From positions 1 through 41,250 of the IMG/VR virus record IMGVR_UViG_3300025325_000060: 41,250 bases of DNA, one strand, 5' to 3'. Positions 1,806-41,250 of this stretch are shown one piece after another. Under the pieces are notes generated by a model. The model was not told the DNA's origin. It saw only the letters and a list, made by a program, of their open reading frames with translations, and did not search any database. Both the position numbers and the translations under genes were made by a program. How positions within the stretch are numbered: position 1 is the first letter of the stretch; every line of letters starts with the position of its first letter. Source of the stretch: a virus.

Positions 1806-2381
1806 TCAGGACGGCGTAGGGTCCTCCGAGCGCACGGCAGGCAGCTCTTGGTCTCCGCTCTGCAGGGCCGCGAGCTGGAGGCCCAGGGTCATCTGGAAGT
1901 GCGGCCGGTCGGGGAAGTGCCGGAATCGGCCTCCCCACTGGAGGTCCAGGTCTTCGCCGATCTCCCCGATGCGTCGCCACAGGGCCTCGTCCTCGGGCCA
2001 GGACGGGTTCCCGCCGGCGTCGATCACGGCCACGTCCACGGCGAGGCCCCAGTTGTGCCAGGACTCACCACCCCGTGCGCGCGTGACGGTGGCCCCGAGC
2101 GGGTGCTCACCGCACGTCCCGGACTTCCTCAGCTCCGACCCGTGCCGACAGGGGATCTCGGACTGCTTGGTCCGGCCACAGGCATAGAGGTCGTCCTGGT
2201 CCTCGGTCGAGCGAAACCCGTGAGTGATGCAGAGCAGGATCCCGGCCTTCTTGGCGCGAGCGATGAGGGTCCGGGCTCGCCCGGCCACCTCGGGTCGCAC
2301 GCCCAGGAGATGCGCCTCCGTCGCCGCGTCGGCCGCCGCCCGCGAATCCTCGCTGGTGAGGACACCGAATCCGGTGCTCAT
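1806..2381 (-). CDS. M15-family peptidoglycan peptidase (endolysin or virion lysin)
   Basis: 191 aa; the start at 2381 overlaps the JAMM gene stop (ATGA) with GGAGG upstream. Zinc-site motifs of M15 peptidases are present: SWHNWGLAVD supplies His109 and Asp116, and DRPHFQM supplies His161. ITHGFRSTEDQDDLY is the typical first conserved block. Length and the HFQ ending resemble the M15C L-Ala-D-Glu/CwlK-type branch. An insert between blocks carries three cysteines (ACGR, PCRHG, GTCGE). There is no signal peptide, so it needs a holin or acts in the virion. It cleaves the peptide stem of cell-wall peptidoglycan; exact bond not determinable. Confidence 0.9.
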   Translation of the reverse strand: MSTGFGVLTSEDSRAAADAATEAHLLGVRPEVAGRARTLIARAKKAGILLCITHGFRSTEDQDDLYACGRTKQSEIPCRHGSELRKSGTCGEHPLGATVTRARGGESWHNWGLAVDVAVIDAGGNPSWPEDEALWRRIGEIGEDLDLQWGGRFRHFPDRPHFQMTLGLQLAALQSGDQELPAVRSEDPTPS

Positions 2382-2788
2382 ACGACCTCCACGATCAGTT
2401 CGTCCCACATGCCCGCCGGCTTCTGGTGGAGCCGGAAGGCCCGCAGAGAGACCGTCTCGGGAAGCTGCGCCAACCCGATGATGATGGTCACCACATCGTT
2501 CCAGGCGGTCATGTAGTCGAAGCTGGACGGTACGGCCCCCGCGGTGGGGTGGGAGTGGTAGATGGCGAGGGGGACGAGGCCTGCGGCCTCGATCTGCTTT
2601 TCGATCCGGAGCTGCTCCTTGGCGCCCACCTGGTAGGTCTGGCGAGGCTCCGCGGCCACGTTCGTCAGGCGGAAGATGCGCGTGAGCGCCCCGTCCTGCG
2701 GACCGGCCAAGAGGCCGACGCATTCGTTGGGTCGTTCTTCGAGCGCGTGAGCCAACATACTGAGATAGAAGCCGCGGTCGAGCTTCAC
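2378..2788 (-). CDS. JAMM/MPN+ metalloprotease domain protein (Mov34/PAD-1 type)
   Basis: 136 aa from GTG at 2788, which overlaps the previous stop (GTGA). All JAMM zinc-site residues are present: Glu22 in NECVGLLAG and the HxHx7SxxD set His78, His80, Ser88, Asp91 (YHSHPTAGAVPSSFD). In siphophages a JAMM domain is fused to a peptidoglycan hydrolase in the lambda gpK-type tail-tip protein. Here the JAMM and M15 genes are separate but coupled, consistent with a split version or with a virion maturation protease. Substrate unknown. Confidence 0.88.
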   Translation of the reverse strand: MKLDRGFYLSMLAHALEERPNECVGLLAGPQDGALTRIFRLTNVAAEPRQTYQVGAKEQLRIEKQIEAAGLVPLAIYHSHPTAGAVPSSFDYMTAWNDVVTIIIGLAQLPETVSLRAFRLHQKPAGMWDELIVEVV

Positions 2789-2967
2789 GCCCGCTTCCGG
2801 TAGCCCGCCACGCTGGCCCGGCTGTGCCCAGGTTTCTTGCGCCCCTCGGCCCCCGAGATCTTACCGGCGTGGATCGAGCCGTAGAAGACCTCGTTCGCCT
2901 TCTGCTCGGTGGGGTAGGTCTTGCGCATGCTGGCGAGGATCTTCCGGCCCTTAGGTGTTCGAGGCAT
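2785..2967 (-). CDS. Small basic phage protein, 60 aa
   Basis: Begins MPRTPKGRKILASMRKTYP and continues with EVFYGSIHAGKISG. The pattern KGxKI...MxxxY...VFY-S---GKI-G recurs in many podovirus genomes as a conserved hypothetical protein of about this size, usually near structural genes. Very basic, with no cysteines and no membrane segment. It overlaps the preceding gene by 17 bases and the JAMM gene by four. Role unknown; nucleic-acid or capsid-interior binding would fit the charge. Confidence 0.75.
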   Translation of the reverse strand: MPRTPKGRKILASMRKTYPTEQKANEVFYGSIHAGKISGAEGRKKPGHSRASVAGYRKRA

Positions 2968-3214
2968 GGGAGACCCTCACGCTCCGCCTTCCATGGGCCC
3001 GTTCCTGAATCCAGCCATACAGCGGGGTTGCCGCCTCGAGGTTCTTGAGCACTTCGTACCTGTACTGCTTCCAGGTCTCCGCATAGAGTGCGTCGAGGGT
3101 GAAGGCCGGCGCGGCGTACACCGGGGACGGCACGGGCAGCAGGGCGATGAGGGGGGACGCGGCGTGGGCCACGCCCAAGGCCAGGATGGACTTGAAGAAC
3201 CCCCGGCGATCCAT
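2951..3214 (-). CDS. Tat-like signal fused to a capsid N-arm-like segment, 87 aa
   Basis: Starts MDRRGFFKSILALGVAHAAS: a twin-arginine-like motif (RRGFFK) and hydrophobic stretch ending near VYAAPA. Residues 39-77 (TLDALYAETWKQYR, EVLKNLEAATPLYGW, HGRR) line up by eye with residues 36-74 of this phage's major capsid protein (TLDNLYSTTWQLMN, EVVDNIFGSTPLWYW, VRR). The match covers only the capsid N-arm; the HK97-type body is missing. The ATG shares a base with the upstream stop (TGATG), the same junction used between scaffold and capsid at 17673. It may be a remnant of duplication or a repurposed capsid-binding peptide. The start at 3214 is preferred over the upstream GTG because it restores the signal and the coupling. 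Confidence 0.7.
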   Translation of the reverse strand: MDRRGFFKSILALGVAHAASPLIALLPVPSPVYAAPAFTLDALYAETWKQYRYEVLKNLEAATPLYGWIQERAHGRRSVRVSHASNT

Positions 3215-3417
3215 CAGCCACCCCACAAGTGGCAGAGCTCGCGGAAGTCCGTACACTGAGACTTGGCGAGGTTGTAGAGTGCCTCAAGATTTAGACGCAG
3301 GTTCGCGTTCTTCTTGGCCAGGGCGACCATTTCGTGCTTGTACTCCCAGAAATCTGGGTACTTGTGCACCATCTCGTCGACCTTATGCCCCAGGTCAAGT
3401 GGATGCAGGATAATCAT
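3214..3417 (-). CDS. Miniature scaffold-like protein, 67 aa
   Basis: Residues 20-52 (YPDFWEYKHEMVALAKKN followed by ANLRLNLEALYNLAKS) align by eye with residues 134-162 of the scaffold protein (ADFWEYRETLEQIAQAYP, then NLHPEHAYLLAKQ), sharing DFWEY, a conserved A, NL and Y-LAK. The long scaffold coiled coil and C-terminal capsid-binding helix are missing. It sits directly upstream of the capsid-arm-like gene, reproducing scaffold-capsid order and the TGATG junction. Two cysteines lie near the C-terminus. A GGAAG ribosome site lies about nine bases upstream of ATG 3417. Confidence 0.7.
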   Translation of the reverse strand: MIILHPLDLGHKVDEMVHKYPDFWEYKHEMVALAKKNANLRLNLEALYNLAKSQCTDFRELCHLWGG

Positions 3418-3434: not shown

Positions 3435-3653
3435 TCACAGAATCTCCTCATATTCTGTGTGCTCGTCCCTGCGCAGAGTGTTATAGAAGGACCGCGGCAT
3501 CGTCTCCTCCTCGGTGTACGTCTCGATCTCTCCGGTCAGCGGATTTACGGTGCGCGTGGTCACGCGGTACTTCACCACCTCGTCTCCATGAGCTCGACAC
3601 CACTCCACCACATCCATTATCGGTTCGCCCCGATGCTTCAGGAAGGTCGCCAC
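3435..3653 (-). CDS. Hypothetical protein, 72 aa
   Basis: GTG start at 3653 sharing a base with the previous TAG. The protein is charged, with a beta-rich centre (KYRVTTRTVNPLTGEIETYTEEE) reading like a strand-turn-strand hairpin, and an acidic tail HTEYEEIL. An alternative start is the internal Met 13 (MDVVEWCRAHGDEVV). No family recognised. Neighbours are small structural-region proteins. Confidence 0.65.
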   Translation of the reverse strand: MATFLKHRGEPIMDVVEWCRAHGDEVVKYRVTTRTVNPLTGEIETYTEEETMPRSFYNTLRRDEHTEYEEIL

Positions 3654-3907
3654 TACCGTTCGTCCTCTTGTTGGTCGAAGGCCTCATCCGTTGCCTCGGC
3701 CTCCGGCTCCTCCGGGAAGAAGCACTCGTAGTGGAAGATCTGCCGGCCGGTCACGTCCTCCATGCCGCCCTCGGGCGTGAGCAGGCCGTCAAGGAACTGG
3801 ATGACGCGGTCGCCGGGAACGAGGTCATGGCCGCAGGTCGCGCAGGGCAGGGCAGGAGAGGGTGGCGCGTCTTCGAGTTCCAGGACCCGCTTGCCTTCCT
3901 CGCTCAT
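3653..3907 (-). CDS. Small zinc-binding protein, 84 aa
   Basis: Start at 3907 (MSEEGKRVLELED) chosen for GAGGA about seven bases upstream and a short gap to the previous gene. CATCGHDLVPGDRVIQF, then GGMEDVTGRQIFHYECFFP, gives a CxxC plus HxxC pair about 30 residues apart, a likely one-zinc treble-clef or LIM-like knuckle. The C-terminus is very acidic (EEPEAEATDEAFDQQEDER). Function unknown. Confidence 0.7.
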   Translation of the reverse strand: MSEEGKRVLELEDAPPSPALPCATCGHDLVPGDRVIQFLDGLLTPEGGMEDVTGRQIFHYECFFPEEPEAEATDEAFDQQEDER

Positions 3908-3917
3908 CACTGCGTCC

Positions 3918-4064
3918 TCATATCCTCGCCCACCCGAACGTCTTTTTCCCGATGACTCTAAACGCCCAGACATAACATTCCCAACACAACTCATCTCCGC
4001 ACTTCAGGTGGAAGTGGTACATGTCGGGAAAGATGAACCCGCACACCGAACAGGTTCTTCTCAT
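3918..4064 (-). CDS. 48-aa zinc-knuckle protein
   Basis: ATG at 4064 overlaps the stop of the 1593-aa gene by four bases, with GGAGGAAC upstream. Four cysteines in two pairs, CSVC near the N-terminus and CWEC about 25 residues on, plus HFHLKC between them, make a compact zinc ribbon. The tail is aromatic and basic (YVWAFRVIGKKTFGWARI). Position next to another zinc protein suggests a small virion-assembly or host-directed factor, but no family is recognised. Confidence 0.7.
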   Translation of the reverse strand: MRRTCSVCGFIFPDMYHFHLKCGDELCWECYVWAFRVIGKKTFGWARI

Positions 4065-7000
4065 CGTAGTTCCTCCCCCACCGCCTGCTGCCGTAACCCC
4101 ACCGGCAACCCCCGCCCGAACTGCTGCGGCACCGGGCGCATCCGTTCCTGTTGAACCCGCAGGACATCCTCGGGGCGGATGGCTTCGTTCCAGCGCTTCG
4201 AGAAGCTCGTCGCCGCGTCGAGGTCCCCTTCGAGGATCGCGTCGATCGCCCCCCGCTTGTCGCGCCGGTGCTCGTAGGAATCCATCATCAACCGGCGGGC
4301 GAGGTGTTGGGCCTGCGCGCGCTCAGGGGGCGCCACGCCCGCCAGCCGCATCAACTCCCCCCATGGTGTGGTGTTATATAGGTATCGAGCCTTCGTGTCA
4401 ACGGCGTAGCCCCGGCTGATGCCCTCGATCACGTCCGCGGCCTTCTTGCCCCAGCGGTACTGCGGCCTCGTTAAGGTCTTGAAGAAGTCGGTCAACTCCT
4501 GTCGGGCCTCGTCCCGGTCGGCCAGGGTGTAGCCCATGAGCGCCGCGTAGCCGTTCCGGATCATCCGCCAGAAGGGATTCATGGTGAGGTCCAACACGGA
4601 CTTCATCCCCCAGCTGTCGTTCACTCCGTAGCCGAAGACCTCGTACATGATATAGGGCAGCGCCGTGAACCCGCCGGTCAGGGCCATAAACCGCACGAGG
4701 CGCCCCGCGTCCCCGGCCGCCACCGCCTCCGCGAATCCCTCCGACAGGCTCTTGCCTTGCAGGTGTTGAGCCATGGCCTTGCTGGACTGCACGAGGCCCC
4801 GGATCTCGAAGGCCGCCTGCTGCGTCGGGTAGGTGACGAGGAGGCTGCTGACCCGCCCCAGGACCCCGCGGAACATGGGGGCCATCTCGGCCGAGGACAT
4901 CCCGAACTGCGTCTGCGGGACCACCTTGAAGAGCGCGTGCTGAATCTGCTCGGAGAGCTCCAGGGGGGGCACAAGGCTGCTCGCCTTGGCGTAGGCGTTG
5001 ACCAGCATGGCCTTCGGGCTGAGCCCCCGGGCCGCCGCCTCCTCCATCCCGACGGCAAACGCGGCCCCGCGGTTCGCGTACTCCGTGATGGACATCGGCG
5101 ACAGGACCGCGCGCGTGAGCGCCTGATCCCACCGAAGCACCTTCTCCATGACCCCGGAGCGCATCCGGGCCGGGAAGTCCTCGGTCGTCAGGTCCACGAA
5201 CTGACCCACCAGCCCCCGCTGGCGCAGATCAGAGAACGCGGAGATGTGCTTGAACAACGGCCCGACGACCTTGCCGTTCTGGGCCCAGTTGTTCAGCACC
5301 TGGGTCGTGTTGGTCAAGGCCGAGTCGATGCCGAGGGAGCCCCGGTAGAAACCGGACCGGAACAAGGTGACGCCGGCGTGGATCTGGTCCACGTTCAACA
5401 GCGGCTTGCCGAGGGCCAGGTTGATCCGGTCGGTCAGGTAGCCGAGCATCTGGTCGGTCTGGGTGGGCCGGCCGAGGATGCGGCCCTCGAGGTAGGTCCG
5501 CATGTAGCGCTTCTCGGTCAGGGGCAGGTCGGGGCCCGGGAGTTCCGTCAGGATCTTGTTCCACTTGGCGAGGAGCGGGTCGAACTCGATCTTCTTCACG
5601 GCGATCGGCACGTAGTGCTGCCAGGCCGCAACCAGGCTTTCCTTGTACGGGGCCTCGCCGATCCTGGGGAGCAGGTACCGGTCGAACACGGCCTTGGGCA
5701 GTTGCTGCTGCAAGAACTCGGGCAGGCTGTCCCAGGTGTCGGCAATCGTGTTGAATTTCCACAGCTCCTTCAGCTCGGTCTTGACCGTGCGCGGGAGCCG
5801 CTCCCAGTCGGGGAAGCCCTGGAACACCTTCCGGAAGTGCTCGAAGCGCGCCGGGGAGCCGACGCGGAACGCGACCTTGGTGTCGAGGTCCGCCAGCGTG
5901 ACCTTGCCCGCAAAGTGCCCGCGCAAGGCCTGGTAGATCGTCTCGAAGTCCGTCACGTGGGTCACGTAGTTGAGCCAGTCGGGGGTCCCGAGCCGCTGGG
6001 CGAAGTCCCGCATGGCCTCGCGCCAGCTCTCGACCGCGATCCGCTCCTGGGGCGTGGCCTTGGCCAGCGGGATCTCCCCCTGGACCATCTTGAAGGCCCG
6101 GGCGTCCGAGGGCGTCCCGGCCCCCCCGACCGCTCCCACGATCCGCTCCCGACCCCAGTCGCCCCACTTCTTGAGCTGGTCAACCGCCGAGGATTCCGCC
6201 TTCTTGCCCTCGAACCCGAGCTGGGCGATGAAGGGGTTCTGGCTCTGCTGAGGCTGGACCCAGGGCATGGCGAAGCGCCACCGGGAGGGCGCGGATTCAC
6301 CGGCCTGCACCCGGGGGATGCCCTCGCCAGGCGCCAGGCGAGCCATGGCCTGGTCCCCCAGGTCCCGGAGTTGCCGCCGCGTCTGCTCGGGGGTGAGGCC
6401 GGCTTTGACGTCTAGCCCGGCGGCCTGCCGCACTTCGCCGATGGTCATGCCCTTGCGGAGGCCGAGTCGGCGGGCGATGCCTGGCGAAGTTTCCACCAGG
6501 AAGTCGGCCGAGGCGTCTTCGGGGGCCCGCGTGGTCATCATCCGCACAGCCTCACGATCCGACTTCGTGAAGTCCGGTCCCGCCCCGCGGCGCTTGACCG
6601 TCCGCCCATGCAGGCGCCCCTCGGCTGCCCCGAAGGGGAAGTCGGTTCCCGCCTCCTCGGCCGCGGCGCGGGTCTCCATGCTGGCGATGAGTTCGCGCTC
6701 CTGTTCCGCGGTGATATTGCCACCGGCTTTCGCCTCCCGCAGCAGATCCTTCGTGCTCTCCCTCTCCGCCTTGAGCTTCGCCATGGTCTCTGCGGCGATG
6801 CGCCGCTCTTCCTCACTCGCCACCTGGCCTGGGCGGAACGTTGGCGTCTTGCGGATCTGGCCGATCTCCGCCTTCCCGGCCGTGGCCGATGGGCCTGGCG
6901 CCTTGGCGGCGGCCATCTCCGCGGCGATCTCGGCCTCGGTCTTGCCGAACATGCGGCCAACGAACTGCTGGTTCTCCGCGGACAACTTCCCTGAGGGGAC

Positions 7001-8842
7001 GATGAGGCTCCGGACTTGCCGCTGGAGACCGATCGCCTTGGTGATGCTCGGCGACTTCGCAAAGTAGTAGTACAGGTCGAACCCGCCTGGGCCTGTGCGA
7101 GCAGGTACCTGAGCCAAGGTGAACTTGTAGCCGGCCCTCTCGACGGCCGCCTGGGCCTGTGCGAGGTCACCCCGCGTTCGGATGCCGGTCAGCACCCGCA
7201 CCTGGCCCTTGGGCAGGTCGGGCACCACCTCCCAGGACGGCGACCCCTCGACCCGGGCCGGGTCAGCGATCTCTGCCGCGAAGGGGTCCTTGCCGGAGGC
7301 GTTGGCGAGACGCTGGCGCTGAAGGTTCGCCTGGTCATCGACTCCCAGCGCCGCACCGCGCATCGCCTTGTCGAGCGTGCTGGTCCCCCCCGACGTCGTC
7401 TGCTCGACCGGTTGCTTCAGGGCGGCCCCCCCGGACTGAGTCGCGCCTTGGACGAACTTCCCGGCCGCCGCCTCGTCCGGGAAGATGTCGAGGGTTCCCC
7501 CGCGGCCAACCGCCTCCACCTGCCCATCCGGGCGGGCGCGAATGGTGAATCCCGCCGTCTCGCCGGCCCCCCGCAGCTCGACCTTGACCCCCTCGATGCT
7601 GGCCAGGTCCTCCAGGCCAAGAGACTCCACCGGCCGCATGACGCGCTGGCCGGACGCGGTGATGACCGGGACCTTGGGGCCCCCGCGCCCTGTGCGCCTG
7701 GGCGGGGGACCTGGTCGGCCTTCTCCTGTCGGTCCCCCTGGGAGCGGCCCGGGTGGGGTTCCACGTGGAACACCTGGCGGGGAGGGGGGCGGCTCAGGAG
7801 AGAATCCGCCTGCCCTGGGGATCGGGCGCTCCGGCGGGAACCACGGCTGGGTGGTGGTCTGGCCTTCCATCTCGAACCGGGCCGAAGGCAACGCCCGCTG
7901 CCCTGGTCGAGGCAGGATGCCCCGCAAGGCCTCGTCGTAGGCCTCCATCCCTCTCACGTAGCGCTCCGGCCATCTCACCGGACGCGCCGCCCCAGGCACC
8001 GCCTCGCTGGACGGGGGCATCGCATACGCCCCAGGAGGCAACGCCAGTTGTCCGGGGACACTGGGAGTCTCGGTCCCAGGGAACAATCGCCGCTTGGCCG
8101 CTCCCAGGCCCGCGCCGAGGCCTCTGAGGGCCAGGGCGAGCGGGGGGGCGGTCACGGCCCCGATGGCGGCGCTCTCGACCCGCTGGCCCATCCCCCCTTC
8201 TTCGGGGTTCCAGAGCCCACCGAAGGCCGCACCGGTTGCTGCCTCGCGTGCCAGGGCTCCGATGCCGGCGGCGCCCGTCTGCCCCAATCCCAGGCGGGCG
8301 GCCACGGGGCCGAAACGGGCGGCCAGTGGGGCAAAGCGCGAGGCGCCAACGAGGCCGGCGGTGATGCCACCGACCGGAGCAGCGGCGGCGAACAGGGCCG
8401 CGCCGGGCACGATCCCGCCAAGGATTTCCCCGGCAATGGTGGCTAGCGGGTGCTCAGGGGTGTACTCCCCGGCGTAGCCCAGCGTGAGCCCCCGGAGCAT
8501 GCCCCGGCCGAAGGCGGACAGGAGGCCGGGAGGTTCGGGCGGTGGCCCGCCAAGGCTGGCCATCTCCTGCTGGAAGGCGGCGAAGGCCTCGCGGTCTCCC
8601 ATCCCCCCGATGGCTCCCGGGGAGTAGACCGGCATCGGGTGCCTGAGTCCCTGGCGGGCGACGGTCTCGACCTGCTGGCGGGTGTATCCCTGGCCCTCGG
8701 CCTCCCGGAGTTGCCGCTCCACCGAGTCCTCGATGATGGACTCGGAGACCCCCGCCGCCCTGAGTCGGGCGATGTGCTGAGCCAGTGCCGGGTACTTGAG
8801 GTCGAGCGTGCGCTCGTGAAACCCGCGGACCGCGACGGCCAT
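4061..8842 (-). CDS. Giant internal virion / DNA-ejection-type protein, 1593 aa
   Basis: Largest gene. Residues 1-70 are helical and charged. Residues 130-235 are an Ala/Gly-rich hydrophobic block with GxxxG spacings (AGEILGGIVPGAALF, AAPVGGITAGLVG), typical of proteins that enter or cross the membrane during ejection. Residues about 250-400 are proline/glycine-rich and low-complexity. The C-terminal two thirds is a long helical region with a further hydrophobic stretch near residue 1385 (FMALTGGFTALPYIMYEVFG). Size, position after the tail genes and absence of a tape measure fit a podovirus core or ejection protein (T7 gp16-like in role). I see no lysozyme or transglycosylase motif. Confidence 0.75.
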   Translation of the reverse strand: MAVAVRGFHERTLDLKYPALAQHIARLRAAGVSESIIEDSVERQLREAEGQGYTRQQVETVARQGLRHPMPVYSPGAIGGMGDREAFAAFQQEMASLGGPPPEPPGLLSAFGRGMLRGLTLGYAGEYTPEHPLATIAGEILGGIVPGAALFAAAAPVGGITAGLVGASRFAPLAARFGPVAARLGLGQTGAAGIGALAREAATGAAFGGLWNPEEGGMGQRVESAAIGAVTAPPLALALRGLGAGLGAAKRRLFPGTETPSVPGQLALPPGAYAMPPSSEAVPGAARPVRWPERYVRGMEAYDEALRGILPRPGQRALPSARFEMEGQTTTQPWFPPERPIPRAGGFSPEPPPSPPGVPRGTPPGPLPGGPTGEGRPGPPPRRTGRGGPKVPVITASGQRVMRPVESLGLEDLASIEGVKVELRGAGETAGFTIRARPDGQVEAVGRGGTLDIFPDEAAAGKFVQGATQSGGAALKQPVEQTTSGGTSTLDKAMRGAALGVDDQANLQRQRLANASGKDPFAAEIADPARVEGSPSWEVVPDLPKGQVRVLTGIRTRGDLAQAQAAVERAGYKFTLAQVPARTGPGGFDLYYYFAKSPSITKAIGLQRQVRSLIVPSGKLSAENQQFVGRMFGKTEAEIAAEMAAAKAPGPSATAGKAEIGQIRKTPTFRPGQVASEEERRIAAETMAKLKAERESTKDLLREAKAGGNITAEQERELIASMETRAAAEEAGTDFPFGAAEGRLHGRTVKRRGAGPDFTKSDREAVRMMTTRAPEDASADFLVETSPGIARRLGLRKGMTIGEVRQAAGLDVKAGLTPEQTRRQLRDLGDQAMARLAPGEGIPRVQAGESAPSRWRFAMPWVQPQQSQNPFIAQLGFEGKKAESSAVDQLKKWGDWGRERIVGAVGGAGTPSDARAFKMVQGEIPLAKATPQERIAVESWREAMRDFAQRLGTPDWLNYVTHVTDFETIYQALRGHFAGKVTLADLDTKVAFRVGSPARFEHFRKVFQGFPDWERLPRTVKTELKELWKFNTIADTWDSLPEFLQQQLPKAVFDRYLLPRIGEAPYKESLVAAWQHYVPIAVKKIEFDPLLAKWNKILTELPGPDLPLTEKRYMRTYLEGRILGRPTQTDQMLGYLTDRINLALGKPLLNVDQIHAGVTLFRSGFYRGSLGIDSALTNTTQVLNNWAQNGKVVGPLFKHISAFSDLRQRGLVGQFVDLTTEDFPARMRSGVMEKVLRWDQALTRAVLSPMSITEYANRGAAFAVGMEEAAARGLSPKAMLVNAYAKASSLVPPLELSEQIQHALFKVVPQTQFGMSSAEMAPMFRGVLGRVSSLLVTYPTQQAAFEIRGLVQSSKAMAQHLQGKSLSEGFAEAVAAGDAGRLVRFMALTGGFTALPYIMYEVFGYGVNDSWGMKSVLDLTMNPFWRMIRNGYAALMGYTLADRDEARQELTDFFKTLTRPQYRWGKKAADVIEGISRGYAVDTKARYLYNTTPWGELMRLAGVAPPERAQAQHLARRLMMDSYEHRRDKRGAIDAILEGDLDAATSFSKRWNEAIRPEDVLRVQQERMRPVPQQFGRGLPVGLRQQAVGEELR

Positions 8843-9755: not shown

Positions 9756-10823
9756 CTAGTATCCCGGGAACGCCCCGTAGGGGACGAGACCGCTCATCCC
9801 GCCAAAGTCGATCGCAGATCCCCCCCCGCCGCCACCACCGCTGAAGAGTCCGAGGTTCTTCAGCAGTTGCGAAAGCATCAAGGCCGACCCGATCCCGCCG
9901 CCCACCTCCGTGCCCCAGGAGGGCGCGGTCGTGGTCATCGTGCCCGTCGGCGCTCCGAAGGGGGACGGCGTGCCACTGATCCCGCGGAGCAACGTGTCCA
10001 TTGGCGAGCTCGCGGACCGCACGGCCAGGTCCCGCACCAGGGCCGCGAGGGTGGCCTCGGCCTTCGGGCCGGCCAGTTCCGCCTCACCCGCTCCAGGGAT
10101 CAACGCCCCCGCCGTGGTCAGAGCCCCGAGCCCGAGTTGACGTCTGGCCAGCTCTGCCCGACTCACCGCCTCGGACGCCTCGCTCCCGAATCGGCCCGCC
10201 GCCCGGGTGATGAGGTCCTGCTCCCCCGTGCCCCCTGGCGTCCCGGCCGACATCGCGGATCGGCGGACCTCGGGGGCGACCGTCTCCGTGAAGGCCCTCC
10301 GGATTGGTCCGATCGTGCCCTCCGTGTCCAGCGGGGCCCCGGCCCCGCTGATGAGCCGGCCGATGACCTCCCGGAGTCCTCCGGAGACCTGGCCCCCGAC
10401 CCCGCCAATCACGCCGGGGAGACCCGTTTCCGCGGCGCCGGGGACGAGCAGGCCGGGGAGGGCCTTGATGAGCGCGTCGATCATCCCAGGAGTTCCCGGC
10501 GTCCCAGGAACCGCCGGTGTGCCCGCGGTCCCCAGGCCAGGTACGCCGCCCTCGCCTCCGGCCCCCTCGTCGGTCGTCCGTGGCAAGATCCCGGTCATGC
10601 CGGGACTTCCCGGAACGGCCGGGGTGCCGGGGGTGCCCGGCGTGCCCCAGAGCTTCCCGTAGGCCCCCAAGAGGTAGGGAGTGAGGCTCCGGAGGAGTTC
10701 CGCCTGGGCCTCGGCAGCCGGGCCGGTCTGCGTGACGGTCTGGCCGCCGCTGTCCCGGCTGAGGAGGCCGCCCAGGATACCACCCCCGGCAATGATCGCC
10801 GGACCGATCAGGGCTTGAGGCAT
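9756..10823 (-). CDS. Structural protein with collagen-like Gly-X-Y repeats, 355 aa
   Basis: Start at 10823 (MPQALIGPAIIAGGGILGG) follows a GAGGATC ribosome site two bases after the preceding stop. The N-terminus has a glycine-rich hydrophobic segment. Residues about 55-115 carry two short collagen-like tracts (GTPGTPGTPAVPGSPG, then GTPAVPGTPGTPG). The C-terminus is low-complexity with a Gly run (SGGGGGGGS) and ends GYGAFPGY-like. Likely a virion component of the tail or internal core. The upstream 21 residues of the longer frame overlap the previous gene and are not used. Confidence 0.7.
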   Translation of the reverse strand: MPQALIGPAIIAGGGILGGLLSRDSGGQTVTQTGPAAEAQAELLRSLTPYLLGAYGKLWGTPGTPGTPAVPGSPGMTGILPRTTDEGAGGEGGVPGLGTAGTPAVPGTPGTPGMIDALIKALPGLLVPGAAETGLPGVIGGVGGQVSGGLREVIGRLISGAGAPLDTEGTIGPIRRAFTETVAPEVRRSAMSAGTPGGTGEQDLITRAAGRFGSEASEAVSRAELARRQLGLGALTTAGALIPGAGEAELAGPKAEATLAALVRDLAVRSASSPMDTLLRGISGTPSPFGAPTGTMTTTAPSWGTEVGGGIGSALMLSQLLKNLGLFSGGGGGGGSAIDFGGMSGLVPYGAFPGY

Positions 10824-12874: not shown

Positions 12875-14065
12875 TCAGATCAGCGCGATCACGTACCAGC
12901 TGCCCGCCGCGTCGTTGGTGAGCAAGGCGCCGTTCCATTGCGCCGCGAGGGTCAGGCTGGTGGCCCCGTCGATCGTGTTCGTGAGGCTGCGGGCGATCGT
13001 CACCGCGTTCGCGCTCGCATCCACTTTCTTGATGAAGTAGATGATCTTGGGCGCGTCCGTTGACGCAGGAAGGGTCATGGTTCTCGCGCCCCCGGACGCA
13101 TCCACGTAGACCGCGAAGTCGTCAGCGGTCAACGTGTAGTTCACCGCCTTGTTCACGAACCCCAGGGCCAGCCCCCCGAGCACGTCCAGCGTGACGTTGG
13201 CCTGCCCGGCGCCAACCCGCACCCGGCCTCCGGTGTGGATGGTCATCCGGGTCGTGCCGGTCGGGCCCCCCGCCTTCATCTGCCAGAGCGAGTTGTCGCC
13301 GAACACCCCATGGGTGAAGCTATTCACGGAGTTGGCGTTGTCGAAGTGGGTGAACGAGGCGTTGGCGGTCAGGGCGTTCTTCTGCACCGCGATCTGGCCC
13401 GAGCGGTTCCCGCCGATCCCCCCGGCGACCAGGGCGGTCAGGGACGCCCCGAAGGACAGATAGAAGGCCGCGTCGCTACCCAGGACACTCGCCGCCGTCC
13501 AGTAGGCCAACCGGTCCACGACTCCGGACCCACTCAGAGCGCCCGCCGCCCCCAAGGCCGTCCATCCGGTGGTGCCCGCCCCCGTTTCCTTCACGTAGAG
13601 CGTTGTGCCACCTGCCCCGTCCGTCCGGAGGTAGAGCGAGCCGACCACAGCCGCCACCACGCCCTCGGGGGTCCCGGTGCCCTGGGTGACGGAGGGAATG
13701 CCGACCGTGAGGGTCTTGGCCGTCGCGTCCCAGGTGAAGTCTGCGTACCCGGACAGCGCCGCGGCGGCGGTCCAGACGGCGAGTCGCTGTGCGGCCCCCG
13801 CGCCCGTGAGGCCGGCGGCCCCGAGCGCCGTCCAGCCGGTGAGGCCCTCGCCGGACTCCTTCACGTAGAGGGTGGCGCCGGCGACCCCATCGAGACGCTC
13901 GTAGAGCGAGCCCACGGGGGCGGCGATGACCCCTTCGGGGGTCCCGGTGCCCTGGTAGAGGGTTCCCAGGGCGGCGTCGAGTTCGAGGAGTTTGGTGGTG
14001 AGGAACTGGCGCAGCTGGCTCAGGTCATGCGGGACGAGGACCGGCAGGCGAGCGCGCGCGGGCAT
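12875..14065 (-). CDS. Tail fibre protein with duplicated GTGTPEG modules, 396 aa
   Basis: Two copies of a roughly 46-residue module: residues about 38-83 (QGTGTPEGVIAAPVGSLYER ... LYVKESGEGLTGWTALG) and 127-172 (QGTGTPEGVVAAVVGSLYLR ... LYVKETGAGTTGWTALG). Modules of this type occur in phage fibre shafts and glycan-binding appendages. The C-terminal half is beta-rich (FDNANSVNSFTHGVFGDNS, then VYVDASGGARTMTLPAS, ending WYVIALI), as in trimeric fibre tips. The N-terminus (RARLPVLVPHDLSQLRQFL) may attach to the tail. Host-receptor binding is the likely role. Confidence 0.8.
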   Translation of the reverse strand: MPARARLPVLVPHDLSQLRQFLTTKLLELDAALGTLYQGTGTPEGVIAAPVGSLYERLDGVAGATLYVKESGEGLTGWTALGAAGLTGAGAAQRLAVWTAAAALSGYADFTWDATAKTLTVGIPSVTQGTGTPEGVVAAVVGSLYLRTDGAGGTTLYVKETGAGTTGWTALGAAGALSGSGVVDRLAYWTAASVLGSDAAFYLSFGASLTALVAGGIGGNRSGQIAVQKNALTANASFTHFDNANSVNSFTHGVFGDNSLWQMKAGGPTGTTRMTIHTGGRVRVGAGQANVTLDVLGGLALGFVNKAVNYTLTADDFAVYVDASGGARTMTLPASTDAPKIIYFIKKVDASANAVTIARSLTNTIDGATSLTLAAQWNGALLTNDAAGSWYVIALI

Positions 14066-16596: not shown

Positions 16597-17673
16597 TTAA
16601 CTCGGCATCCCCGTGAGGACGCCCTGCATGCGCCGGTTGTTCGTGGTGAACTGGCACGTCACGATCACCTGGGCCACCCGGTCGAACTGGTCCGGGATGC
16701 CCTTCCACTCGGTCATGTCGAAGTCGGCGGCCTGGTCGATGTAGAGCAGCAGGTAGCGCTCGTTCAGCTCGTAGAGCGTCCCTGCCGGGCAGGAGTCCCC
16801 GAAGGTCAGCGCCGACCCCTTGAAGCGCAGCGCCTGGAAGCCCAGGTCGCCGAACTCCGACACATCGTAGACCTGCAGCTTCCCCAGGAGGCTCGCCTCG
16901 TAGCGCTCGTACTGGGTCACCTCGGTCAGGAGCAGCGTCGGGTGGTCGTTGCTCTTGGAGCAGAGGTTGTAGAGCTTCCGGAGGTTGAAGGCGATGTCGG
17001 TGTCCCCGGACAGCAGGCCCATGGTGTCCCAGGTCCGCTGCTTGTTCCGCCACCACGTGTTGGTCGCCGCGTCGATCCCGCCGATGTTCCCCGGCGGCGT
17101 GGCCGGGTTCGTGGTCGGGTCTGACTTCACGATCGCGCGCAGGCCGAGGATGTCCTTGCCGTCATTGCCGGACCCGTCCCCGAAGGACTGCACCTCGAGC
17201 TGGTCGATCAGCGACAGCTCCAGGTTCTTGATCTTGTCGAGGGCCAGGTCCCGGATCTCGCTGGCGCCGGTGTTCTGCTGATCGTCCTGGCGATAGCGGA
17301 CCACGCTCCCCGCCACGTTCTTCCAGTCGTACTTCCCCGTGGTCTCGATGTTGGTCTCGGTGATCGGCACCTGCCCGCCGCGGCCGACGGAGCCGACGGT
17401 CGCGTTCTTGCCGTACATCAACGGCACGCCGATCCACCGGCTGCCCTTCGTCCGGCGCACCCGGTTCCGAGAGCTCATCCAGTACCAGAGCGGCGTCGAG
17501 CCGAAGATGTTGTCCACGACCTCCTTGTTCATCAACTGCCAGGTCGTGGAGTAGAGGTTGTCGAGCGTCTCGATCAGGCTCTCCGGGGTCGCCGCGCCGC
17601 CCATCAACGGGAAGCGGGGCCGGGGCACCCGAAGGATGGTGTGCGGGCGGATGCGGACGACCTCGGTGTTCAT
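16597..17673 (-). CDS. Major capsid protein, HK97-fold type, 358 aa
   Basis: Start at 17673 shares a base with the scaffold stop (TGATG) and has AAGGAGA upstream. The N-arm (ESLIETLDNLYSTTWQLMNK, then TPLWYWMSSRNRV) precedes a beta segment SRWIGVPLMYGKN, then a spine-helix-like region (DLALDKIKNLELSLIDQLEV) and a C-terminal strand block with YELNERYLLLYIDQAAD, the usual podovirus capsid layout. No protease gene is needed because a separate scaffold is present. Forms the icosahedral shell. Confidence 0.85.
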   Translation of the reverse strand: MNTEVVRIRPHTILRVPRPRFPLMGGAATPESLIETLDNLYSTTWQLMNKEVVDNIFGSTPLWYWMSSRNRVRRTKGSRWIGVPLMYGKNATVGSVGRGGQVPITETNIETTGKYDWKNVAGSVVRYRQDDQQNTGASEIRDLALDKIKNLELSLIDQLEVQSFGDGSGNDGKDILGLRAIVKSDPTTNPATPPGNIGGIDAATNTWWRNKQRTWDTMGLLSGDTDIAFNLRKLYNLCSKSNDHPTLLLTEVTQYERYEASLLGKLQVYDVSEFGDLGFQALRFKGSALTFGDSCPAGTLYELNERYLLLYIDQAADFDMTEWKGIPDQFDRVAQVIVTCQFTTNNRRMQGVLTGMPS

Positions 17674-18347
17674 CACAGGCTCTCCTTGTTGCCCACGTGT
17701 TGTTTCCAGGCCTTCTTGAAGGCGTCGGCCCCGTTCGCGGCGGCCGGGACGCGCGTGGAGCGGTTGGCGTTGCTCGGGCGCTCGCTCGGGGTGGCCCGCG
17801 GTTCCACGGCGGCCGCGACTTCCTCGCGGGCGGCCGCGGCCTTGGCCGGCTTGGGGAGCTGCTTGGCAAGCAGGTAGGCGTGCTCGGGGTGGAGGTTCGG
17901 ATAGGCCTGGGCGATCTGCTCCAGGGTCTCCCGGTACTCCCAGAAGTCCGCATGCCGGCCGGCGGTCTCGTTGATGACGCGCACGGACCGGTCGTGCGCC
18001 GACTCCTCGCGCACGCCCTTGACCAGCTCCGACACGCGCTGTTCCCATCGGCCGTCCAGGAACTTCACCAGATCCTTGGTGGACATGGCGTCGAAATCGG
18101 GCTCGTTCTCCGCCGCCTTGCCCTCGGGCTTCTCCTTCACGCCCCCCTTGGTCCGCGTGGCGATGAACTCCACGTAGGAGGGGTCGAGCAGCATGGCTTC
18201 CAGCTTCTTGCGGTTCCCCTCCGCCTGCTGGAGCTGCTGCTGCAGCTCGGCCACCTCCGCCTTGGTCGGTCCCTGGGAGTCCTCGGGCGGGTCCCCCTTG
18301 GGCTCGTCCTCCCCACCGCAGATCGGGAACAGCCTCATCCGGTGCAT
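17673..18347 (-). CDS. Capsid scaffolding protein, 224 aa
   Basis: Start at 18347 with GAGGAGG about five bases upstream. Acidic, helical and low in hydrophobics: coiled coil at about 28-55 (EVAELQQQLQQAEGNRKKLE), central ADFWEYRETLEQIAQAYP then NLHPEHAYLLAK motif at 133-162, Ala/Glu-rich linker, and a C-terminal basic helix DAFKKAWKQHVGNKESL of the kind that contacts the capsid in other phages. Located immediately before the capsid gene. Expected to direct shell assembly and then leave. The DFWEY segment has a second, shorter relative at 3214-3417. Confidence 0.8.
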   Translation of the reverse strand: MHRMRLFPICGGEDEPKGDPPEDSQGPTKAEVAELQQQLQQAEGNRKKLEAMLLDPSYVEFIATRTKGGVKEKPEGKAAENEPDFDAMSTKDLVKFLDGRWEQRVSELVKGVREESAHDRSVRVINETAGRHADFWEYRETLEQIAQAYPNLHPEHAYLLAKQLPKPAKAAAAREEVAAAVEPRATPSERPSNANRSTRVPAAANGADAFKKAWKQHVGNKESL

Positions 18348-40740: not shown

Positions 40741-41250
40741 GCCACCACCTTCTTCCGTGCCTTGCAGGCGTCCAGGCGTGACTCAGCCAGCTCCAGGTCA
40801 CGCCGCAGATCCGTCACTCGCCGCCCCCAGTAGTGGACGGACCAGGCCATGTCCCGGCGCTTCGACGCCAGGTGGTTGATGGATTGCTTCTCGCGGTGCT
40901 TTCGGTCGGCCTCGTTCAACGCCTCGCACCGCCGCGCACATTCGGCCTCGTCGCGGAACAGGTTCTCCACTTCGACCGGTCGCCAGCAATTCGAGGCTGG
41001 GTTGTCCTCGCTGTATCGGATGGTCTCACCGGAGATATCCACCCGCCGAGGCGTGAAGCTCGTTGGCCGGTGCTCCATGATGGTCTGCTCGATCCAGCCG
41101 CGGGGTTCCTCGTATCCATGTCCGCAACAGGCACAGTTGATTGAAACCTGCACCCCATTGCCTTGGATGAGCGTGAGCACCTTGCTCCCGCAGCACTCCG
41201 GGCAAGGCATCCTCTCGGTGCGCGAGCCGTAGCCAACCCACCAGATTGTT
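40737..41250 (-). CDS. Zinc-ribbon plus coiled-coil protein, C-terminal part (start lies across the contig junction)
   Basis: The frame is open to the contig end and continues in frame at 137-175, giving 183 aa from ATG 175. CPECCG and CACCG, 18 residues apart, form a zinc ribbon. The rest is charged and helical (EAECARRCEALNEADRKHRE, VTDLRRDLELAESRLDACKA), probably a coiled coil. The internal methionine at 41210 would remove the N-terminal strand region and has no better ribosome site. Third gene of the early unit. Function unknown; nucleic-acid binding likely from the zinc ribbon. Confidence 0.85.
   Translation of the reverse strand, partial: TIWWVGYGSRTERMPCPECCGSKVLTLIQGNGVQVSINCACCGHGYEEPRGWIEQTIMEHRPTSFTPRRVDISGETIRYSEDNPASNCWRPVEVENLFRDEAECARRCEALNEADRKHREKQSINHLASKRRDMAWSVHYWGRRVTDLRRDLELAESRLDACKARKKVVA
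41125..41250. repeat. Terminal direct repeat, right copy (126 bp)
   Basis: Identical to 12-137. This copy has true coding sequence upstream (41101-41124 differs from 1-11), so it is the reliable side of the junction. Confidence 0.95.

Follow-up and report, generated by a model that had tools for sequence, protein, structure and literature searches.

Why would a phage with a complete scaffold gene and a complete capsid gene carry two further, very small genes that resemble one piece of each? The question is raised by virus record IMGVR_UViG_3300025325_000060, of which we analyzed a stretch of 41,250 nt (hereafter the window) with a mini scaffold-capsid pair at 2951-3417 on the minus strand. 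An original prediction had described the pair as adjacent fragments of the phage's own scaffold and capsid N-arm genes; its coordinates were correct, and the 67-aa and 87-aa ORFs are joined by a TGATG stop-start junction. The four genes to be compared are:

3214-3417, minus strand: 67-aa mini-scaffold ORF, with the DFWEY…LAK three-helix domain at residues ~11-54
2951-3214, minus strand: 87-aa ORF, with a leader at residues 1-~35 and a capsid N-arm homologue at residues ~37-78
17673-18347, minus strand: full-size scaffold of 224 aa, homologue of the mini-scaffold, with a C-terminal tail matching the group's scaffold-tail profile
16597-17673, minus strand: major capsid protein (phrog_9953, HK97 fold), with the copied part in its N-arm (helices 32-59 and 61-68)

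The homology of the mini pair to scaffold and capsid arm is real. In Smith-Waterman alignments with the full-size proteins of the phage, the 67-aa protein scored 62 on the scaffold (fitted p 6e-6) and the 87-aa protein 89 on the capsid (p 2e-9), with 0 of 2000 shuffles as high in either case, and the crossed comparisons (67-aa against capsid, 87-aa against scaffold) stayed at or near background. In a search of 24,654 ORFs with HMMs of the scaffold motif and capsid N-arm, built from relatives and the full-size genes with the mini proteins left out, both mini proteins were recovered: the 67-aa protein scored 36.6 bits (E=3.8e-9), the 87-aa protein 26.5 bits (E=5.3e-6). The 87-aa protein also matched the capsid in a search of the window's own genome (E=5e-7). 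Chance similarity is ruled out by the shuffles together with the matches to HMMs built without the mini proteins. Searches of NCBIfam, Pfam, and PHROGs returned no family for either protein.

The gene order of the mini pair is that of the full-size pair, as had been proposed. The proposal that both pairs share the TGATG junction stands for the mini pair and is weak for the full-size pair, because the capsid start at 17673 gives residues that no relative has: this N-terminal extension, the first ~25-30 residues (17603-17673, minus strand), was absent from all relatives compared and had low prediction confidence in the structure model. Met24 is a plausible true capsid start, and no TGATG was found at the scaffold-capsid junction of the four sister phages examined. 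As a separate observation, an ORF ending near 9960 and lying just upstream of the capsid gene in a 59.9-kb contig (L064) contains a long A/Y/D-rich run, AYAAYAAYAAAYAAAAAY….

What the pair kept and what it lost differ between its halves. AlphaFold2 predicted three helices for the 67-aa protein, with a mean pLDDT of 77 and values of 85-90 over the homologous part; fold searches with this model gave no significant match, nor did the protein's profile in the PDB. In the HK97-fold model of the capsid protein, the kept part is made up of helices 32-59 and 61-68; the arm's conserved D-x-I-F core is lost. As predicted, the capsid body is missing: the 87-aa ORF ends right after the N-arm, and the E-loop, P-domain, and A-domain are absent from it. 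The scaffold C-terminal tail carries a motif (GF-x-x-x-FLxAW-like) conserved across the phage group, and its profile scored 28.7 bits on the phage's own scaffold tail and found nothing in the mini pair in any frame, which also rules out that the leader of the 87-aa protein is a frameshifted scaffold tail.

The source of the segment was traced through similarity, spacing, and phylogeny. The mini-scaffold scored 103 against the scaffolds of L115 and L110 and 101 against that of L109, compared with 62 for the phage's own scaffold, while the mini-arm was about as near to L106 (97) as to the own capsid (89). The mini pair has 158 nt between the end of the scaffold-motif match and the beginning of the arm match; this spacer measures 141-149 nt in L106, L107, L109, and L110 but 260 nt in the window's full-size pair. 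In a concatenated tree, the mini pair grouped with the window's full-size pair and the same four loci with a bootstrap of 92; L038 also fell inside this group, likely through a long-branch effect, and supports in the single-gene trees were low. No DNA-level repeat linking the mini-pair site with the full-size pair was found. A recent copying of the full-size genes was rejected on the nearer sister-clade scaffold, the different spacer, and this lack of a repeat, and the idea that the pair consists of fragments of the phage's own genes is not supported. Of the uses originally suggested, a partial copy that has degenerated agrees with the drift of the arm described below. It is more likely that the mini pair is one contiguous segment of this lineage, taken from a related phage rather than from its own locus, and we regard an origin as a partial foreign copy as highly probable. 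Direct homologues of both halves, in the same order, are the Mx8/BUCT555-type capsid (phrog_9953) and scaffold of uncultured phages G047-G050, which, unlike the window, have full-length single-copy genes and no second pair; in G047, G048, and G049, other genes lie downstream of the counterpart large protein.

How rare such a second copy is was examined in related loci, of which a capsid-profile scan yielded 80 and an arm-profile scan 44. Whole-record searches with the arm and scaffold profiles covered 80 of the related loci's records and named phage records. Apart from the same virus, none of the ~80 related records held more than one convincing copy each of the arm and scaffold motifs, many of the records being fragments and the denominator being smaller for the scaffold than for the arm, given that the scaffold profile matched nothing in 21 of 51 first-batch records. 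G031 had an extra weak arm-like match of 25 residues (E=5.7e-4) within a 536-aa frame. The only other record with the mini pair, IMGVR_UViG_3300002120_000024, was 100% identical to the window across 14,000 bases and differed at 2 of the remaining 13,100, and is therefore the same virus. Scanning viral contigs with the 67-aa and 87-aa proteins returned this virus only, as did a search for closer relatives via the terminase and the 1593-aa protein encoded upstream; alignment-based scans of viral contigs gave, the same virus aside, full-length pairs only; no further copies were found in genome contigs, and phage and plasmid records held nothing convincing. The search for the same pair in related genomes, proposed with the original prediction, thus located a second copy in one virus only.

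The window looks like a complete genome of ~41.1 kb, circularly closed or terminally redundant, given that an exact direct repeat of 126 bases lies at both ends (12-137 and 41125-41250). Its bases 1-11 are an inverted copy of part of this repeat (arms 1-26 / 41125-41150), probably an assembly artefact. The mini pair sits in a packed minus-strand series of small ORFs downstream of the 1593-aa ORF (4061-8842), which matched no characterized family. Its neighbors are:

3653-3994, minus strand: 113-aa ORF, part of the packed small-ORF series
3435-3653, minus strand: 72-aa ORF directly upstream of the mini-scaffold, without a family match
2785-2967, minus strand: 60-aa ORF, with a 17-nt overlap with the 3' end of the 87-aa ORF
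2378-2788, minus strand: JAB-domain protein, in the packed series
1806-2366, minus strand: M15 endolysin-like protein (phrog_2649)

The overlap of the 60-aa ORF, to which a single phage protein was weakly similar, shows tight gene packing around the mini pair, and junctions were overlapping or coupled throughout this same-strand series, within which no promoter-like site was found. Comparison of the other small neighbors with structural genes, to see whether they too are fragments, gave nothing significant once corrected for multiple testing. The JAB-domain protein matched a tail-protein PHROG and, below the cut-off, the desampylase model NF041370 (E=6e-20). Elsewhere in the window, two direct copies of 152 bases, 72% alike, occupy 13541-13962 within ORF 12875-14065, possibly a tail-fibre gene.

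The test for purifying selection, also proposed for the pair, gave different pictures of the two halves. The mini-scaffold, with pS 0.70 and pN 0.28 against L110, had a tree branch of 0.42 (median terminal branch 0.50), whereas the mini-arm had a branch of 1.11 (median 0.15), a drift about seven times that of the median arm, and a pN to relatives of 0.45-0.51. Among the window and its four sisters, the full-size arms differ from one another by only 0.08-0.28. From these sequence comparisons, the scaffold domain looks constrained and the capsid arm drifted. In neutral simulations at matched nucleotide divergence, protein identity fell below that observed in 8 of 8 comparisons (P 0/1500 to 0.028), an excess that also takes in constraint in the donor before capture; 31-40% of runs per segment had no stop. 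Given that the pair is known in one virus only, post-capture constraint is inseparable from donor constraint, and the values show a history of constraint, stronger in the scaffold domain, and fall short of proving present-day function.

Our preferred reading, held tentatively and at somewhat under an even chance, is that the mini pair is an old partial second scaffold-capsid junction from the phage's own lineage, whose 67-aa protein modulates head assembly. It is supported because both halves match independent profiles and because their order and 158-nt spacer fit the sister clade. Recombination with a related phage would have brought in a contiguous segment that was later trimmed. The scaffold part would have become an independent three-helix domain protein with a start and a stop of its own, and the capsid part would have lost everything past the N-arm and gained a new hydrophobic leader. 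In this model, expression, folding in vivo, and any role in assembly are inferred: the 67-aa protein would still be made and folded, and would join or modulate head assembly, perhaps as a sub-stoichiometric core or ejection-protein partner, using the contact that this domain makes in the complete scaffold. The 87-aa protein may be a drifting or repurposed passenger retained through translational coupling. Retention of the domain is favored by the normal mini-scaffold branch, the identity above neutral, the confident three-helix model, and the gene packing; it is weakened by the occurrence in one virus only, the drifted arm, the absent C-terminal tail, and the low single-gene supports. A present function of some kind has about an even chance.

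A retained mini-scaffold domain and a relic are about equally likely, and a decoy or an exported peptide less so. As a relic, quite credible though still short of an even chance, the pair would be a captured scaffold-capsid fragment of a related phage without present function, its frames still open because capture was recent and GC-rich DNA is stop-poor. This fits its presence in one virus only, the fast evolution of the arm, the loss of scaffold tail and capsid body, and the 0.31-0.40 chance per segment of meeting no stop under neutral drift. However, phage genomes usually shed unused DNA, both ORFs are packed within an overlapping-gene series, the scaffold domain is still a complete three-helix unit of normal branch length, and a shifted reading of the scaffold tail does not account for the leader.

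That the mini proteins act as an assembly decoy or size modifier, disturbing or resizing the heads of this or competing phages as satellites do, appears improbable. Precedents exist. SaPI1 CpmB is small, shares homology with part of a phage scaffolding protein, and competes with it as an alternative internal scaffold (PMC5644958). The capsid homologue Ccm of SaPIbov5 (PMC8569155) is a second capsid-related protein that could enter or disturb heads, as the mini-arm potentially could. A contact between scaffold and capsid N-terminus is a widespread interface in assembly (PMC5644958, PMC6813328). In phage 80-alpha, it is the scaffold C-terminus that binds the capsid N-arm (PMC5644958), and by analogy the scaffold tail here may do the same. 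However, CpmB acts through its C-terminus, a coat-binding helix with an RIIK hook that is the homologue of the scaffold C-terminus (PMC5644958), whereas the mini-scaffold lacks the tail and keeps a different domain; a coat-binding tail was sought and not found, so a CpmB-like role is not supported, which counts against the decoy or resizer of the original prediction. Ccm is full-length, at 355 residues with an HK97 fold, whereas the mini version has ~40 N-arm residues behind a hydrophobic leader, and the mini genes belong to the phage itself, unlike those of a satellite. It is similarly doubtful that a foreign scaffold-capsid junction has been domesticated, with the stand-alone scaffold domain and coupled arm protein tuning assembly or excluding related phages.

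The 87-aa protein begins, as predicted, with RRGFFK and a hydrophobic stretch (MDRRGFFK at the start, a possible VYA|AP cleavage site, Tat-signal likeness by eye). A simple Tat-like filter passed 1 of 431 ATG starts in the window and 0 of 3727 in shuffled DNA. Export is a possibility that the leader raises, and the 87-aa protein could take the Tat or Sec route to an envelope role, such as one near the lysis step with the arm helices reused; we consider this very unlikely, since, despite the rarity of the leader and the nearby endolysin (1806-2366, phrog_2649) and small hydrophobic ORFs, no Pfam or NCBIfam Tat model matched it, relatives' DNA held a handful of distinct filter-passing leaders among 15,071 starts (mostly in frames unlikely as genes), and all homologues found lack it.

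The existence of the mini pair in the sequence is solid and unusual, although its occurrence in a single virus limits what may be inferred, and in the literature searched we found no described system of this form, in agreement with the original prediction. Satellites use scaffold and capsid homologues to control the heads of their helpers. A phage with fragments of a related phage's genes would reveal the starting material for this trick, or even its completed form, inside a phage, and would allow the roles of the individual scaffold domains to be tested simply.
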